DNA of 64,000 nucleotides from Flavobacterium sp. HSC-32F16. Its GTDB lineage: Bacteria; Bacteroidota; Bacteroidia; Flavobacteriales; Flavobacteriaceae. Below the pieces are notes generated by a model, which was given only the letters and a program-made list of their open reading frames with translations, made no database searches and was not told the DNA's origin. Within the stretch, counting starts at the first letter, position 1. Each line of letters begins with the position of its first letter. Position numbers and translations under genes: made by a program. The stretch covers positions 744,001 through 808,000 of the forward strand of contig NZ_JALKAC010000001.1 in assembly GCF_024171645.1 (NCBI RefSeq), in the 5' to 3' direction. Shown here one piece after another: positions 58,969 to 63,054 of this stretch.

Positions 58969-60075
58969 ATGAGTACAAACAACCTGTTTTCGCCATTTAA
59001 CTTAAAAACGTTAAATCTGAAAAACCGAATCGTAATGGCGCCTATGACGCGCTCTTTTTCTCCAAACGGAGTTCCAACTGATGAAGTAGCTGCTTACTAC
59101 CAAAAAAGAGCTGAAGGCGAAGTTGGTTTAATATTATCTGAAGGAACTGTGATTGACAGACCTTCATCATCAAATGATGCTAATGTACCGCATTTTCACG
59201 GAGATTTAGCTTTAAGCGGATGGAAAAAAGTAATCGAAGAAGTTCACGCTGCGGGCGGAAAAATGGGACCGCAGATCTGGCATATGGGAATTATGGACAA
59301 TCATCATTCTGGATGGGTTCCGCCTGTTCCGTTTGAAGGTCCGTCTGGATTAAACCGTCCTGATTTTAGAAATGGTGTGGCTATGTCTGAAAAAGATATT
59401 GAAGATACTATTCTTGCTTTTGGTAAAGCTGCCGCTGATGCTAAAAGATTAGGTTTTGATACTATCGAAATTCACGGTGCACATGGTTATTTAATTGACC
59501 AGTTCTTTAGAGCCGAAACGAATTTACGTGAAGATATTTACGGCGGAAAAACATTGCCGGAGCGTAATCGTTTTGCTATTGAAGTAATAAAAGAAATCAG
59601 AAAACAAGTAGGAAATGATTTTGCTGTTATCATGCGTTTTTCTCAATTTAAACCTTCTGATTACAACTATAAACTGGCAAAAAATCCGCAGGAATTAGAA
59701 GCCTGGCTTACTCCTCTTGTTGATGCTGGTGTCGATATTATTCACGCTTCACAGCGTCGTTTCTGGGAGCCGGAATTTGAAGAATCTGATTTGAATTTTG
59801 CAGGCTGGGCTAAAAAAGTAACCGGAGCGCCAACAATTACTGTAGGCTCTGTTGGACTTTCTGGTGATTTCTTTGGTGCTTTTGCCGGAGAAAGTTCTGA
59901 GCCAACTTCTTTAGAGGAATTAAACAGACGTTTCGACAGAGGCGATTTTGATTTGGTTGCTGTTGGAAGGCCTCTTTTATCTGATCCTAACTGGGTTGCT
60001 AAAATTAAAGCAGGAAAAACAGATCAGTTAAAAGGTTTTAGCAAAGAAGCTTTAGGAGCTTTAGTTTTAGAATAA
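58969..60075 (+). CDS. NADH:flavin oxidoreductase (Old Yellow Enzyme family)
   Basis: FMN-dependent ene-reductase of 368 residues that reduces activated double bonds of quinones, enones or nitro compounds. Marks: FNLKTLNLKNRIVMAPMTRS, the IEIHGAHGYLIDQFF motif, VIMRFSQFK, and the FMN-phosphate loop GRPLLSDPNW. Six bases after the ArsR gene, so co-transcribed and probably induced by a compound the enzyme removes. Confidence 0.92.
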   Translation: MSTNNLFSPFNLKTLNLKNRIVMAPMTRSFSPNGVPTDEVAAYYQKRAEGEVGLILSEGTVIDRPSSSNDANVPHFHGDLALSGWKKVIEEVHAAGGKMGPQIWHMGIMDNHHSGWVPPVPFEGPSGLNRPDFRNGVAMSEKDIEDTILAFGKAAADAKRLGFDTIEIHGAHGYLIDQFFRAETNLREDIYGGKTLPERNRFAIEVIKEIRKQVGNDFAVIMRFSQFKPSDYNYKLAKNPQELEAWLTPLVDAGVDIIHASQRRFWEPEFEESDLNFAGWAKKVTGAPTITVGSVGLSGDFFGAFAGESSEPTSLEELNRRFDRGDFDLVAVGRPLLSDPNWVAKIKAGKTDQLKGFSKEALGALVLE

Positions 60076-60079
60076 GTTT

Positions 60080-60120
60080 TTTAAAGATACTAAGACTCTA
60101 AGATTCTGAGGGACTAAGTT
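60080..60120. repeat. cttag-type repeat, copy A
   Basis: ttttttaaagatactaagac at 60080 followed by tctaagattctgagggacta. Almost repeated at 60244-60289 in the same orientation. Confidence 0.6.
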
Positions 60121-60140
60121 TTTTTATCTTTACTTGAAAT

Positions 60141-60180
60141 AAAATAAGGGATAAACTTAATTGTTTATCCCTTATTTTTG
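60141..60180 (+). terminator. Intrinsic terminator after the OYE gene
   Basis: Arms aataagggataaac / gtttatcccttatt followed by Ts. Confidence 0.85.
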
Positions 60181-60218
60181 AATACCATAACTAACAGAAT
60201 TAAGAAATACAATATTTT
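60180..60218. repeat. Direct repeat upstream of tyrS, copy A
   Basis: gaataccataactaacagaa followed by ttaagaaatacaatatttt. A similar sequence (about 34 of 40 positions by eye) lies downstream of tyrS at 61811-61850, also directly after a terminator. Confidence 0.55.
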
Positions 60219-60243
60219 AGAAAGGTTTGTAGAGACAACAGTT

Positions 60244-60290
60244 TTTTTAAAGACTAAGACTCTAAGATTCTGAGGTACTAAGTTTTTTTG
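60244..60290. repeat. cttag-type repeat, copy B
   Basis: ttttttaaagactaagactc followed by taagattctgaggtactaag; direct copy of 60080-60120. Its end supplies the -33 TTG of the tyrS leader promoter. Confidence 0.6.
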
Positions 60291-60318
60291 AATAGCATAA
60301 TTAAAAATTTTATCTTTG
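60288..60318 (+). promoter_or_regulatory. Promoter of the tyrS leader
   Basis: TTG (60288-60290), 20 bases, TATCTTTG (60311-60318): a full match to the Bacteroidota promoter consensus. Predicted start of transcription is at about 60322-60326, at the leader peptide ATG. Confidence 0.82.
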
Positions 60319-60323
60319 CAGTC

Positions 60324-60434
60324 ATGAAATTCCTGAACAGCATATTACGCCTTCCTTTTTTCAGCACTTATTATTATGCAATAATATCTGCTCGGATAGG
60401 CTATGCATATAATTCAACGTATTCACAACTGTAA
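60324..60434 (+). CDS. Tyr-rich leader peptide of tyrS
   Basis: Open frame of 36 codons reading MKFLNSILRLPFFSTYYY, then AIISARIGYAYNSTYSQL. Six of 36 codons are Tyr, three of them consecutive (residues 16-18, 60369-60377). It begins right at the predicted start of transcription, is followed by an intrinsic terminator 27 bases after its stop, and then by tyrS. The codon bias for the cognate amino acid is the hallmark of attenuator leader peptides. It is short and would not show in usual ORF lists. The alternative, a chance frame, is unlikely given the promoter, YYY run and terminator together. Confidence 0.75.
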   Translation: MKFLNSILRLPFFSTYYYAIISARIGYAYNSTYSQL

Positions 60435-60490
60435 ATTAGTATATAAATTATATAAACCTTAAAGCCCGGGCATTTTGTCCGGGCTTTTTT
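60349..60490 (+). promoter_or_regulatory. Candidate tyrosine attenuator (alternative RNA structures)
   Basis: Three segments can pair in two ways. Segment 1 gccttcc (60349-60355) can pair with ggataggc (60394-60401, one bulge), looping out the YYY codons. Segment 2 tgctcgg (60389-60395) can pair with ccgggca (60466-60472, one G-U), which is the left arm of the terminator. So pairing 2:3 prevents the terminator and 1:2 allows it. Stalling of a ribosome at the YYY codons would mask segment 1 and favour read-through into tyrS. This is inferred by hand pairing. Confidence 0.65.
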
Positions 60491-60493
60491 ATT
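60461..60493 (+). terminator. Intrinsic terminator directly before tyrS
   Basis: Eleven-base stem aaagcccgggc / gtccgggcttt (one G-U) with a five-base loop and a run of Ts, 10-15 bases ahead of the tyrS ATG at 60503. Its place between promoter and gene shows it must be regulated. Confidence 0.9.
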
Positions 60494-60502
60494 TTCAAAA
60501 AA

Positions 60503-61705
60503 ATGGAAACAATTCAAAAACTTAAAGAAAACACCGCAATCTTCCTTCCGGAAAATGGTCTGGAAGAAAAATTAAATCAGGCTGAAAAAGAAAACAGAAA
60601 ACTGATCATCAAATTAGGCTTTGACCCTACTGCTCCGGATTTGCATTTAGGTCATGCTGTTGTATTAAAAAAATTAAAACAATTTCAGGATTTAGGACAT
60701 CAAATTGTGATTTTGGTAGGAAGTTTTACGGCCAGAATTGGCGATCCAACCGGAAAAAACAAAAGCCGAAAACCTTTAAACCCTGAAGAAGTGCGGCACA
60801 ATGCTGAAACTTACATTACACAATTATCAAAAATTATTGATGTAGAAAAAGCACAGATAGCTTTTAATTCTGAATGGCTCGATGCACTTTCTTTTTCTGA
60901 AGTCATTCAGATTATGTCAAACGTAACGGTTGCACAGCTTATGCAAAGAAATGATTTTAACAAACGGTTTACTGAAAATACACCAATAGCCATGCATGAA
61001 TTAGTTTACCCAATTTTGCAGGGTTTCGATTCGGTTAAAATCAATGCCGATATTGAAATGGGCGGTACAGATCAGCTTTTTAATTGCACGATGGGAAGAC
61101 AATTGCAGGAAACCTTTAAAAAATCGCCGCAAATTGTAATGTGTATGCCTTTATTGAGAGGTTTGGACGGAAAGGAAAAAATGAGTAAATCCCTGAATAA
61201 TATTATAGGTCTAACGGATGAACCTAACGAAATGTTTGGAAAAACAATGTCGATTCCTGATCATCTTATTGTAGAGTTTTTAGATTTAACTACTGATTTT
61301 ACTTTTGATGAAAAACAAGAAATCAAAAAAAGGCTGGAACAGGAAAATCCAATGAACATTAAAAAATTGATTGCGAAAAATATCATTTCTCAATACCATG
61401 ATACAAAAAGCGCTGAAGATGCTGAAGATTTTTTTATTAATCAGTTTCAGAGCAAAAACGTTGAAGCAAAATCATTTATCAAGGTTATGATTTCTTCTTT
61501 AGGATGTGAATCAGATAAAATGGCGCTTATTGATCTTTGTGCTTTAATTAAAAATGACATTACAAAATCGGCAAACAGAAGATTGATTGAAAGTGGTGCT
61601 GTACAGATTAATCACGAAAAAATTCTAAATCCGTACGAATTGATTCTGCTGGAAAAAGAAACCAAAATTAAAATAGGAAAACGAAATTTTTATGAATTGG
61701 TTTAA
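60503..61705 (+). CDS. tyrS: Tyrosyl-tRNA synthetase
   Basis: Class I aminoacyl-tRNA synthetase of 400 residues that charges tRNA-Tyr. The HIGH motif appears as HLGH at 48-51 (APDLHLGHAVV) and the KMSKS motif as KMSKSLNN near residue 230. The Tyr-binding region GGTDQLFN is intact, and a C-terminal S4-like RNA-binding domain (LIESGAVQINHEKI) follows. The family start GFDPTAPDLHLGHAVVLKKL fits the TyrZ-type branch. It is preceded by a Tyr-rich leader peptide and a terminator, so it is likely under tyrosine-responsive attenuation. Whether the genome has a second tyrS cannot be seen. Confidence 0.95.
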   Translation: METIQKLKENTAIFLPENGLEEKLNQAEKENRKLIIKLGFDPTAPDLHLGHAVVLKKLKQFQDLGHQIVILVGSFTARIGDPTGKNKSRKPLNPEEVRHNAETYITQLSKIIDVEKAQIAFNSEWLDALSFSEVIQIMSNVTVAQLMQRNDFNKRFTENTPIAMHELVYPILQGFDSVKINADIEMGGTDQLFNCTMGRQLQETFKKSPQIVMCMPLLRGLDGKEKMSKSLNNIIGLTDEPNEMFGKTMSIPDHLIVEFLDLTTDFTFDEKQEIKKRLEQENPMNIKKLIAKNIISQYHDTKSAEDAEDFFINQFQSKNVEAKSFIKVMISSLGCESDKMALIDLCALIKNDITKSANRRLIESGAVQINHEKILNPYELILLEKETKIKIGKRNFYELV

Positions 61706-61774
61706 ATTAATGTTTAAAAAAGCAAAAGTTCAGAGGACAAGGATTTTTCTTAATTGTGTTGGTTCTTAAAAAAC

Positions 61775-61808
61775 AAAAGGGATGAAACAAAATGCTTCAT
61801 CCCTTTCT
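61775..61808 (+). terminator. Intrinsic terminator after tyrS
   Basis: Arms aaagggatgaa / ttcatcccttt around acaaaatgc, followed by Ts. Confidence 0.82.
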
Positions 61809-61810
61809 TT

Positions 61811-61850
61811 GAAATTCCATAACTAACAAAATGTAGAAATTCAATATTTT
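61811..61850. repeat. Direct repeat downstream of tyrS, copy B
   Basis: gaaattccataactaacaaa followed by atgtagaaattcaatatttt, matching 60180-60218. Confidence 0.55.
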
Positions 61851-61864
61851 CATTTAGATTCAGA

Positions 61865-61928
61865 ATGGGAGGTTCAAAGGGACAAAGTTTTTCACTATGA
61901 TCCTTTGCATCTTTGTCCCTTTGAACCT
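61865..61928. repeat. ggttcaaagg-type inverted repeat
   Basis: gggaggttcaaagggacaaa and tttgtccctttgaaccta arms; same family as 51020-51098. May terminate the acyltransferase gene. Confidence 0.55.
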
Positions 61929-63054
61929 ACACTACACTCCTTCTTTTCTGAAATTTATTCTGAAGCCAGTTACGAACAGGTTCATCATATAATTTTAAAC
62001 ATAAATAAGCCAAAACAATGCTGGCTATTAAAAGACCTATTCCTAACATATATCCTTCTTGCATTGTAACTTTATTATCTACAACCCAAGCGGTAAACCA
62101 ATAAATTAACGGGTAATGTGTAATATAAATGGGATAGGAAATATCACCAAGCAGTTTACATATTCTGGCTGAAAATGCGCTTTTAATTTGTCCGCCTGCA
62201 CCTATTGCTACGATTAACGGGAAGATTAAAATAATACAGAAAGATTCGTATAAACCATTCATCCATAAACTATTTTCGTCTCCAAATCTAGGCAGTGCCA
62301 AAACTATGGTAATTAAAATACTGCAAACCCAAAAAGCCCCTTTTAAGTGAATTAATTTACCTAAACGAGATAATAAAACTCCCGCAAAAAACGGATACAA
62401 TAATCGGGTGAAACCCACATTCATTTGTTCCAGGTTTAATGACCATCCGCCAATAACATCTCCCTTAGGGCCGAAAACAGTATAGTTAATTAACAGTCCG
62501 GCAAATATCAGTACCAAAACCGACAGCACTTTATTCGAAAATTTGCGAAAAATTAGGGCGTACAAGATGTTAGCAATATATTCGAAAAAAAGTGACCATG
62601 CCGGACCATTTAAAGGATGCATTTCTCCCCACCCTCTAATTTCTAATGAAGGCGGAATTGGCAATAAGGTAAAACCAATTACCATGGTTACAATTAACTT
62701 CCAGACTTCCATTCCGGCAATTTGCGGAAATAATATATCTGAAGCCTGCAAATAATAAAAAATCGCTCCAATGATCATTCCCATGATTACCATTGGCTGT
62801 AAGCGAATTAATCGGCGTTTGTAGAATTCCCATTGTGTCATTTTCCCCCAGCGGTCGTCGTAAGCATACGCCACAACAAATCCTGATAAAAGAAAAAAGA
62901 AATCAACAGCTAAATATCCATGATTTATAATTTGTATAAAACGGCTGCCTCCGCTAAAAGCTTCGAAAATATGAAAAGCAACGACTAAAATAGCCGCAAC
63001 TCCACGCAGACCGTCCAAAATTTCGTAATGTTTTTTTGGTTTAATGTCATTCAT
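61927..63054 (-). CDS. Acyltransferase family 3 membrane protein
   Basis: Integral membrane acyltransferase of 375 residues with about ten spans. YEILDGLRGVAAILVVAFHI holds the conserved region with the catalytic His, and FFFLSGF-type (FFFLLSGFVVAYAY) and RRLIRLQP motifs are present. Family members transfer acetyl or other acyl groups to sugars of surface polysaccharides or lipids. It lies 61 bases after the DUF1349 gene on the same strand. Its acceptor is unknown. Confidence 0.88.
   Translation of the reverse strand: MNDIKPKKHYEILDGLRGVAAILVVAFHIFEAFSGGSRFIQIINHGYLAVDFFFLLSGFVVAYAYDDRWGKMTQWEFYKRRLIRLQPMVIMGMIIGAIFYYLQASDILFPQIAGMEVWKLIVTMVIGFTLLPIPPSLEIRGWGEMHPLNGPAWSLFFEYIANILYALIFRKFSNKVLSVLVLIFAGLLINYTVFGPKGDVIGGWSLNLEQMNVGFTRLLYPFFAGVLLSRLGKLIHLKGAFWVCSILITIVLALPRFGDENSLWMNGLYESFCIILIFPLIVAIGAGGQIKSAFSARICKLLGDISYPIYITHYPLIYWFTAWVVDNKVTMQEGYMLGIGLLIASIVLAYLCLKLYDEPVRNWLQNKFQKRRSVV

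Follow-up and report, generated by a model that had tools for sequence, protein, structure and literature searches.

The locus described here lies in a 64,000-nucleotide stretch of Flavobacterium sp. HSC-32F16 (contig NZ_JALKAC010000001.1, positions 744,001 to 808,000; hereafter the window). It comprises, all on the forward strand, a promoter of the Bacteroidota type (60288..60318), a short leader open reading frame (ORF; 60324..60434), an intrinsic terminator (60461..60490) and a gene for an auxiliary tyrosyl-tRNA synthetase (TyrRS), which we call tyrS2 (60503..61705). The leader ORF consists of 36 codons, MKFLNSILRLPFFSTYYYAIISARIGYAYNSTYSQL, six of which encode tyrosine, and codons 16-18 read TAT TAT TAT; these coordinates had been given in an initial annotation of the window and were found to be correct on re-checking. 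According to our analysis of sequence and predicted structure, the arrangement very probably constitutes a ribosome-mediated transcription attenuator that turns on the spare TyrRS as charged tRNA-Tyr falls.

Related loci were fetched by the downstream TyrRS protein alone, and the best 80 of 179 were kept, giving 81 loci together with the window. They cover 11 named Bacteroidota genera, with 49 loci from Chryseobacterium, 11 from Flavobacterium, 5 each from Gelidibacter and Empedobacter, 2 from Arenibacter, single loci from Vaginella, Oceanihabitans, Profundicola, Sphingobacterium, Weeksella and Faecalibacter, and two from further Bacteroidetes/Bacteroidia genomes. The leader ORF was sought with a scan for an R-L-P-F-F-like motif that would also have flagged any locus lacking it, and the ORF was present at 80/80 loci. 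Since the loci had been picked without regard to the leader, this recurrence is not due to chance. The leader of the window itself matches the leader profile (A1) at E 5.7e-18.

The leader is conserved at the peptide level, and selection ends exactly at the Tyr-Tyr codons. While the ORF program picked TTG 60288 as the first start, conservation starts only at ATG 60324. The start codon (ATG in 79 loci, GTG in 2) stands precisely 15 codons ahead of the first Tyr codon in 81/81 loci, with the same result when the rule first used to choose starts was dropped, and the stretch from the start codon to codon 16 is free of indels in all 81 loci. The peptide follows the consensus M-K-x-L-N-x-I-L-R-L-P-F-F-S-x-Y-Y, and codons 8-13 encode LRLPFF in 75 loci, LRLPYF in 3, LRVPFF in 2 and LPFPFY in 1. 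Over codons 2-17 (60327..60374, from K to Tyr-Tyr), the ratio of non-synonymous to synonymous differences per site (pN/pS) is 0.164 in the 81 loci and 0.200 in 22 representatives. For the ILRLPFFS codons it drops to 0.067 and 0.123, respectively, which is similar to the catalytic region of TyrS2 (0.106 in the 22 representatives). The contrast with the other two frames, where values are at least 0.98, points indirectly to translation of the leader ORF. In the eight codons past Tyr-Tyr, pN/pS is 0.994 (0.916 in the representatives), and pN per four-codon window runs 0.22, 0.10, 0.09 and 0.13, then 0.53 and 0.49. With a pS of about 0.67 in the conserved stretch, synonymous sites vary where residues do not.

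Within the control codons (60369..60377), Tyr16 and Tyr17 are each present in 81/81 loci and Tyr18 in 31/81, the total per leader ranging from 2 to 6. The recurrence of both the Tyr codons and the start codon in relatives, which had been proposed as a check on the attenuator, thus bears it out. The second Tyr codon is TAT in 53 loci and TAC in 28. The first (60369-60371) is TAT in 81/81 loci, compared with 43% TAT and 57% TAC in tyrS2 bodies. Codon choice at this position may tune the stall, and a possible link is the queuosine modification of tRNA-Tyr.

The promoter was recognised by its sequence; the sigma-70 scan does not cover the Bacteroidota type. It consists of TTG at 60288-60290, a 20-base spacer and TATCTTTG at 60311-60318, the last G of which lies 5 bases ahead of the leader ATG. 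An exact -7 box, TAnnTTTG, precedes the leader in 54/81 loci and a looser TAnnTTWN in another 21/81; in the 54 exact-box loci, 4-9 bases separate the last G from the start codon. In Flavobacterium psychrophilum, the promoter box occupies -12 to -5 (PMC9723704). Together with the 4-9 base gaps, this gives a 5' untranslated region (UTR) of 0-5 bases in the exact-box loci. For the window, transcription is predicted to start at about 60323 with a 5' UTR of about 1 base, so that the leader would be near-leaderless, its ATG lying at the predicted transcription start, as the initial annotation had supposed when it called the leader peptide leaderless. Leaderless mRNAs are rare in Bacteroidota; in F. 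psychrophilum they make up 5.5% of the mRNAs examined (PMC9723704).

Between leader and gene, the expected strong terminator is present as a stem of 12 pairs, 7 of them G-C (60461-60487), followed by a T tract. It recurs at 80/81 loci, the exception being L077, where one pair of the stem is mismatched and the position of the terminator was set manually in the subsequent counts. The leader stop codon lies 18-45 bases ahead of the terminator, which in turn ends 14-36 bases ahead of the start of the tyrS2 match, a point that in some loci falls a few codons inside the gene. Three segments are predicted to compete for pairing. Segment 2, the putative 5' arm of the antiterminator, lies inside the leader ORF (60389..60402, TGCTCG plus GGCT) and would pair with segment 3 (60463..60472, AGCC plus CGGGCA), which is at the same time the 5' arm of the terminator; in the window this duplex is predicted at -13.4 kcal/mol. 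The pairing of tgctcgg (60389-60395) with ccgggca (60466-60472), noticed by hand in the initial annotation, holds with one G-T pair. Segment 1 (gccttcc, 60349..60355) would be able to sequester segment 2 by pairing with ggataggc (60394-60401), and it is conserved in part only. This pairing is predicted in the window, but the 1:2 stem is not universal in relatives.

The antiterminator core, G[C/T][T/C]CGG, is found in 81/81 loci and starts 12, 13 or 15 bases past the second Tyr codon. This onset of segment 2, 12-15 bases past the codon, is close to the edge of the footprint that a ribosome stalled there would have. Pairing of the 60 bases past Tyr-Tyr with the terminator 5' arm gives a best duplex of -10.4 to -18.9 kcal/mol over the 81 loci, and in 73 of them this duplex uses the conserved core. 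In a test independent of any motif, duplexes of the terminator 5' arm with the 45 bases past Tyr-Tyr average -14.6 kcal/mol, compared with -9.6 kcal/mol after shuffling, and in 74/81 loci no more than 10% of the shuffles are as good. Because the patterns used to find the arms fix four of the six core pairs, a failure to pair was possible at pairs 2 and 3 alone, and neither fails. At pair 2, 32 loci have C-G and 49 have T-A; at pair 3, 56 have T-G, 24 have T-A and 1 has C-G; the non-pair C-A was never seen in the 81 loci. Real partners form 5.68 of 7 Watson-Crick pairs versus 5.21 for permuted partners, a value reached by 0/2000 permutations, and the excess also holds for the 13 distinct combinations. 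The count of standard pairs was reached 0 times in 2000 permutations of the 81 loci and 5 times in 2000 permutations of the 13 combinations.

Folds of the window agree with such a switch. Without a ribosome, the region 60324-60495 folds into the 1:2 hairpin and the terminator (-41.0 kcal/mol). When all positions through 60383 are occupied and transcription has yet to reach the terminator 3' arm, the antiterminator forms (-13.4 kcal/mol), and with a ribosome at the stop codon, the terminator does (-19.8 kcal/mol). It is thus predicted that a ribosome waiting at the control codons leaves the antiterminator accessible and that antiterminator and terminator are mutually exclusive.

Several observations weigh against this interpretation or limit it. 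Once its 3' arm exists, the terminator is energetically best even in the stalled state (-24.6 kcal/mol). A working switch would therefore need to be a kinetic one, which is usual among attenuators. The motif-free test reaches the 5% level in only 43/81 loci, and in 8/81 the strongest duplex begins 1-2 bases past Tyr-Tyr, where it would lie under a stalled ribosome. The change from C-G to T-A at pair 2 falls on one branch of the TyrS2 tree, the partner permutations ignore the relatedness of the loci, and a further relative outside both the 81 loci and the tree, G004, has changed one side only (T-G). A recognisable -7 box is missing in 6/81 loci. The 1:2 stem varies in strength between -15.0 and -3.7 kcal/mol, is weak in several loci, and beats synonymous recoding at the 5% level in just 13/81 loci. 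Nor is the peptide core absolute, with ILHLTFF in G004 and MLPFPFY in L053; G004 retains the terminator and a GTTCGG core. On balance, we consider the predicted attenuator well founded, as terminator (80/81) and antiterminator core (81/81) recur in relatives along with the Tyr codons and the start codon.

The eight leaders with the early duplex are all from Chryseobacterium (L018, L035, L036, L038, L039, L048, L056 and L073). They carry a second possible antiterminator arm, CCGGGCTA, at 1-2 bases past Tyr-Tyr, which pairs more strongly with the terminator arm than the core does.

Judged by its sequence, the gene behind the leader is a second TyrRS of another subfamily and not the housekeeping tyrS. 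The initial annotation was correct in calling it a TyrRS, but the housekeeping TyrS is encoded elsewhere in the genome. The 400-residue product, starting at ATG 60503, matches TIGR00234 with 338.7 bits (cut-off 113.8), and HLGH and KMSKS motifs were found in it by eye. Its closest solved chains by sequence are 6bqy, 1h3e and 6byq (E 1.9e-92 to 3.8e-89), which we take to be Acinetobacter and Thermus enzymes, followed by 1jii (1.9e-27), presumably that of Staphylococcus aureus. The second TyrRS of the genome has 431 residues, lies on another contig and is 28% identical to TyrS2 over the match. Both types co-occur in all 43 leader-bearing genomes searched (those of 41/80 loci plus G357 and G410) and in 7/7 tyrS2 carriers from a draw of the genus.

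TyrS2 is also very poor in tyrosine, a trait that, like the conservation of the leader peptide up to the stall codons, had not been anticipated in the initial annotation. The enzyme of the window contains 5 Tyr, and the 81 TyrS2 proteins contain 3-8, with a mean of 4.17 in 399 residues. The 27 nearest leaderless members of the subfamily from the phylum draw, which are not its full sample, contain 9-14 (mean 11.4 of 404), at a similar G+C content (0.38 versus 0.36 for TyrS2), and 21 housekeeping TyrS (20 from the 43 genomes plus that of the window's own) contain 12-15 (mean 13.6 of 429). In 21/21 genome pairs TyrS2 holds fewer Tyr than the housekeeping enzyme. An alignment of 7 TyrS2 with 12 relatives has three invariant Tyr columns, and at nine more positions, where half or more of the relatives carry Tyr, TyrS2 mostly has Phe, Val, Leu or Ile; we infer that tyrosine was lost in TyrS2 and not gained in its relatives. 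It is a general idea that enzymes may be poor in the amino acid they supply, and the scarcity of Tyr would suit TyrS2 to being synthesised while Tyr-tRNA is scarce.

Taken together, we posit the following mechanism. Transcription would start at or next to the leader ATG, and a ribosome would translate the leader behind the RNA polymerase. When Tyr-tRNA is plentiful, the ribosome would pass Tyr-Tyr and reach the stop codon, leaving segment 2 covered or behind it, and with segment 2 unavailable the terminator would form. When Tyr-tRNA is scarce, be it through tyrosine starvation or through inhibition of or damage to the housekeeping TyrS, the ribosome would wait at codons 16-17 with its leading edge just short of segment 2. 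Segment 2 could then pair with the terminator 5' arm, and with the antiterminator formed, the polymerase would read through into tyrS2. The Tyr-poor TyrS2 of the other subfamily might thus be made under shortage and restore charging.

Starvation for the cognate codons may not be the whole of the signal. We consider it possible, at a little under an even chance, that the leader is a hybrid charging sensor, in which an evolutionarily fixed nascent chain, 15 residues long by the time the first stall codon is reached and with ILRLPFFS as its core, predisposes the ribosome to halt at Tyr-Tyr when Tyr-tRNA dips, the whole being a transferable cassette with its own promoter and an emergency Tyr-poor TyrRS. 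If true, codon-starvation attenuation and arrest-peptide control would be merged in one leader. The alternative of a purely classical attenuator, in which the Tyr codons alone matter and the conserved peptide is a by-product of the 1:2 RNA pairing or of recent descent, is a serious though somewhat doubtful contender; it disputes only the part of the nascent chain, and its probability overlaps with that of the attenuator as such. The codons for R-L-P do contain segment 1, for which pairing with segment 2 is predicted in many loci, with a native mean of -10.6 kcal/mol compared with -8.1 kcal/mol after synonymous recoding, and the his leader is active whatever its peptide sequence (PMC4046918). 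Against it, residues are fixed where synonymous sites vary, in this frame only and only up to Tyr-Tyr, while pN/pS rises to 0.92-0.99 in the downstream codons of the same loci, and the spacing from start codon to codon 16 is free of indels. As the peptide is immaterial to the his attenuator but conserved in the tyrS2 leader, the nascent chain probably helps the stall, and we infer that ILRLPFFS would sharpen it.

It is improbable that the leader is a nascent-chain arrest peptide in the manner of TnaC or ErmBL, sensing not Tyr-tRNA but a small molecule, for instance tyrosine itself, an inhibitor of TyrRS or a drug acting on the ribosome. The tyrS2 leader has conserved residues at positions 2-9 ahead of its first stall codon, a pattern also seen in arrest peptides, and its pre-stall peptide sequence is under selection. 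Nevertheless, two Tyr codons invariant in 81/81 loci and a TyrRS as the product fit tRNA charging better, free tyrosine as a signal would presumably act in the wrong direction for a synthetase, and the small number of Tyr residues in TyrS2 points to scarcity of Tyr-tRNA. A T-box or another tRNA- or protein-binding leader acting in place of translation, suggested by B. subtilis tyrZ, which is reportedly under a T-box and a MarR regulator (work cited in PMC9437257), is hardly credible, as no T-box is among the 23 Rfam matches in 59000-62500 at E<=5 and the leader ORF is under protein-level selection.

The attenuator and its gene appear to travel together as a patchy unit. In draws of genomes from successive taxonomic ranks, which may overlap in species with the 80 loci, TyrS2 was found in 7/150 genomes of the genus (including the window's own; 77-100% identity), each with the leader directly upstream, where 78-81 bases separate the end of the profile match from the gene. 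It was found in 12/266 genomes of the order, with the leader peptide in all 11 besides the window's own, and in the class draw the latter was the sole tyrS2 carrier of 295 genomes (E<=1e-90). A strong leader match was found in 3/395 genomes of the phylum, each with tyrS2. In the window's own genome, the tyrS2 leader is the sole A1 match at E<=10, and no other gene stands under the same leader. The 27 leaderless relatives (44-47% identity), which belong to other classes of the same phylum, have no leader by profile or by a one-strand motif scan of the adjacent sequence. At 17 loci inspected by eye in unannotated sequence, the nearest long ORFs differ by genus, and two Flavobacterium loci share them. 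In the TyrS2 tree, Sphingobacterium yanglingense groups with Vaginella (support 99/95), and the position of Chryseobacterium tagetis is amid other genera (99/74), apart from the other 48 Chryseobacterium. The tree and the differing neighbours point to transfer of the leader-tyrS2 unit and suggest that it is a transferable one. As to a vehicle, 0 viral contigs carry the exact leader pattern, and all 151 matching plasmid records are below 60% identity (best among the matches listed, 49%).

Some weaker matches were set aside. Five A1 matches from the genus draw, with E values between 8e-4 and 0.009 and including a second one in G077, and two weak ones in the phylum draw (G335, with a tyrS relative 1.7 Mb away, and G398) do not lie beside tyrS2 and were treated as chance. 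The pattern RLPFF has 14 matches in the window's own genome versus 28 for the reversed control and is uninformative. In the class draw, genome G751 has two copies of a leader-like stretch, HFHYILRLPFFSKYYVFFIHHRKQ (L142:1501-1572 and L143:1501-1572; E 6.5e-6), preceded by CTTCCA repeat arrays and directly ahead of an ORF beginning MFDFEKLLVYKRA. The product of this ORF presumably resembles a four-helix-bundle or S23-type protein. G751 has no tyrS2 match at E<=1e-90, and the copies may be a relic, a coincidence or another use of the core.

The sequence around the unit contains several repeats. An inverted repeat on the forward strand 3' of tyrS2 (61776..61806), found by a repeat search, is probably the terminator of the gene, although the terminator scan scored it on the reverse strand. 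Upstream, two direct repeats of 48 bases (60078-60125 and 60242-60289) are 90% alike and both contain ACTAAGACTCTAAGATTCTGAGG; the second extends into the leader promoter, and similar text was seen by eye upstream of the leader in the Flavobacterium relatives L003, L004, L006, L008, L011 and L012. Further 3' of tyrS2, positions 61870-61928 form an inverted repeat, with perfectly matching arms of 18 bases set 23 bases apart, that looks like a repetitive extragenic palindrome and has a sub-threshold mir-133 match in Rfam. Other Rfam matches at the locus, including Leu_leader and MicC, score far under their gathering scores and were regarded as chance.

If our interpretation holds, the tyrS2 leader would be a compact, conserved and testable case of leader-peptide control in Bacteroidota, whose mRNAs are without Shine-Dalgarno sequences, and a sensor coupled to an auxiliary synthetase seemingly built for tyrosyl-tRNA famine. 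It would imply that these bacteria repeatedly face conditions that disable ordinary tyrosine charging, for which natural TyrRS inhibitors are a speculative example. If the peptide matters, the customary line that separates arrest peptides from codon-counting attenuators is blurred. No publication on the element was found among the matches listed in a title-level search, with subscription papers mostly outside its scope.

One of the nearest known counterparts is the auxiliary TrpRS1 of Streptomyces, which is reportedly controlled by ribosome-mediated attenuation, as ascribed to Vecchione and Sello in 2010 and Kitabatake in 2002. Like tyrS2, it is a second synthetase apart from the housekeeping one; unlike tyrS2, it is specific for Trp and its role in inhibitor resistance is known, whereas tyrS2 is a Tyr-specific case from Bacteroidota with a peptide-conserved leader. 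In the Rhodobacterales, uORFC-8-2 upstream of cysS likewise combines an upstream ORF, two tandem cognate codons, a terminator and a synthetase gene, with the tandem codons usually at 14-15 instead of 16-17; it concerns Cys and alphaproteobacteria, and the excerpted account mentions neither a conserved peptide nor a second synthetase (PMC8632094). Leader-peptide attenuators are known or predicted for pheST, trpS and leuS, those of trpS and leuS in Streptomyces acting on synthetases for other amino acids in another phylum (PMC1262725). The same differences apply to the hisS leaders of bacilli, some of them on duplicated genes; the paper on that case (2010) states that until then none had been demonstrated outside Proteobacteria and Actinobacteria (PMC2965389). 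B. subtilis TyrZ is, like TyrS2, a second TyrRS beside the housekeeping TyrS, but tyrZ is reportedly controlled by a T-box and MarR (work cited in PMC9437257) and tyrS2 probably by a leader peptide. TnaC and ErmBL share with the tyrS2 leader the importance of the pre-stall peptide, deduced here from conservation, but respond to free Trp or a macrolide, whereas the tyrS2 leader has invariant tandem cognate codons. Within the same genus, the F. psychrophilum transcriptome of 2021 gave 'strong clues' for leader-peptide attenuation ahead of amino-acid biosynthesis operons, the same general mechanism on other genes; its excerpt mentions synthetases only for structured 5' UTRs and no tyrS2 element (PMC9723704). 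The initial annotation had held that a Tyr-specific attenuator for tyrS with a leaderless leader peptide would be unusual in Bacteroidota; leader-peptide attenuation in general had already been proposed in F. psychrophilum (PMC9723704). Since leader attenuators on synthetase genes are already known, the kind of element is not new; what is new is its specificity for Tyr in Bacteroidota, its conserved peptide, the Tyr-poor auxiliary enzyme it precedes and the apparently mobile unit that the two form.

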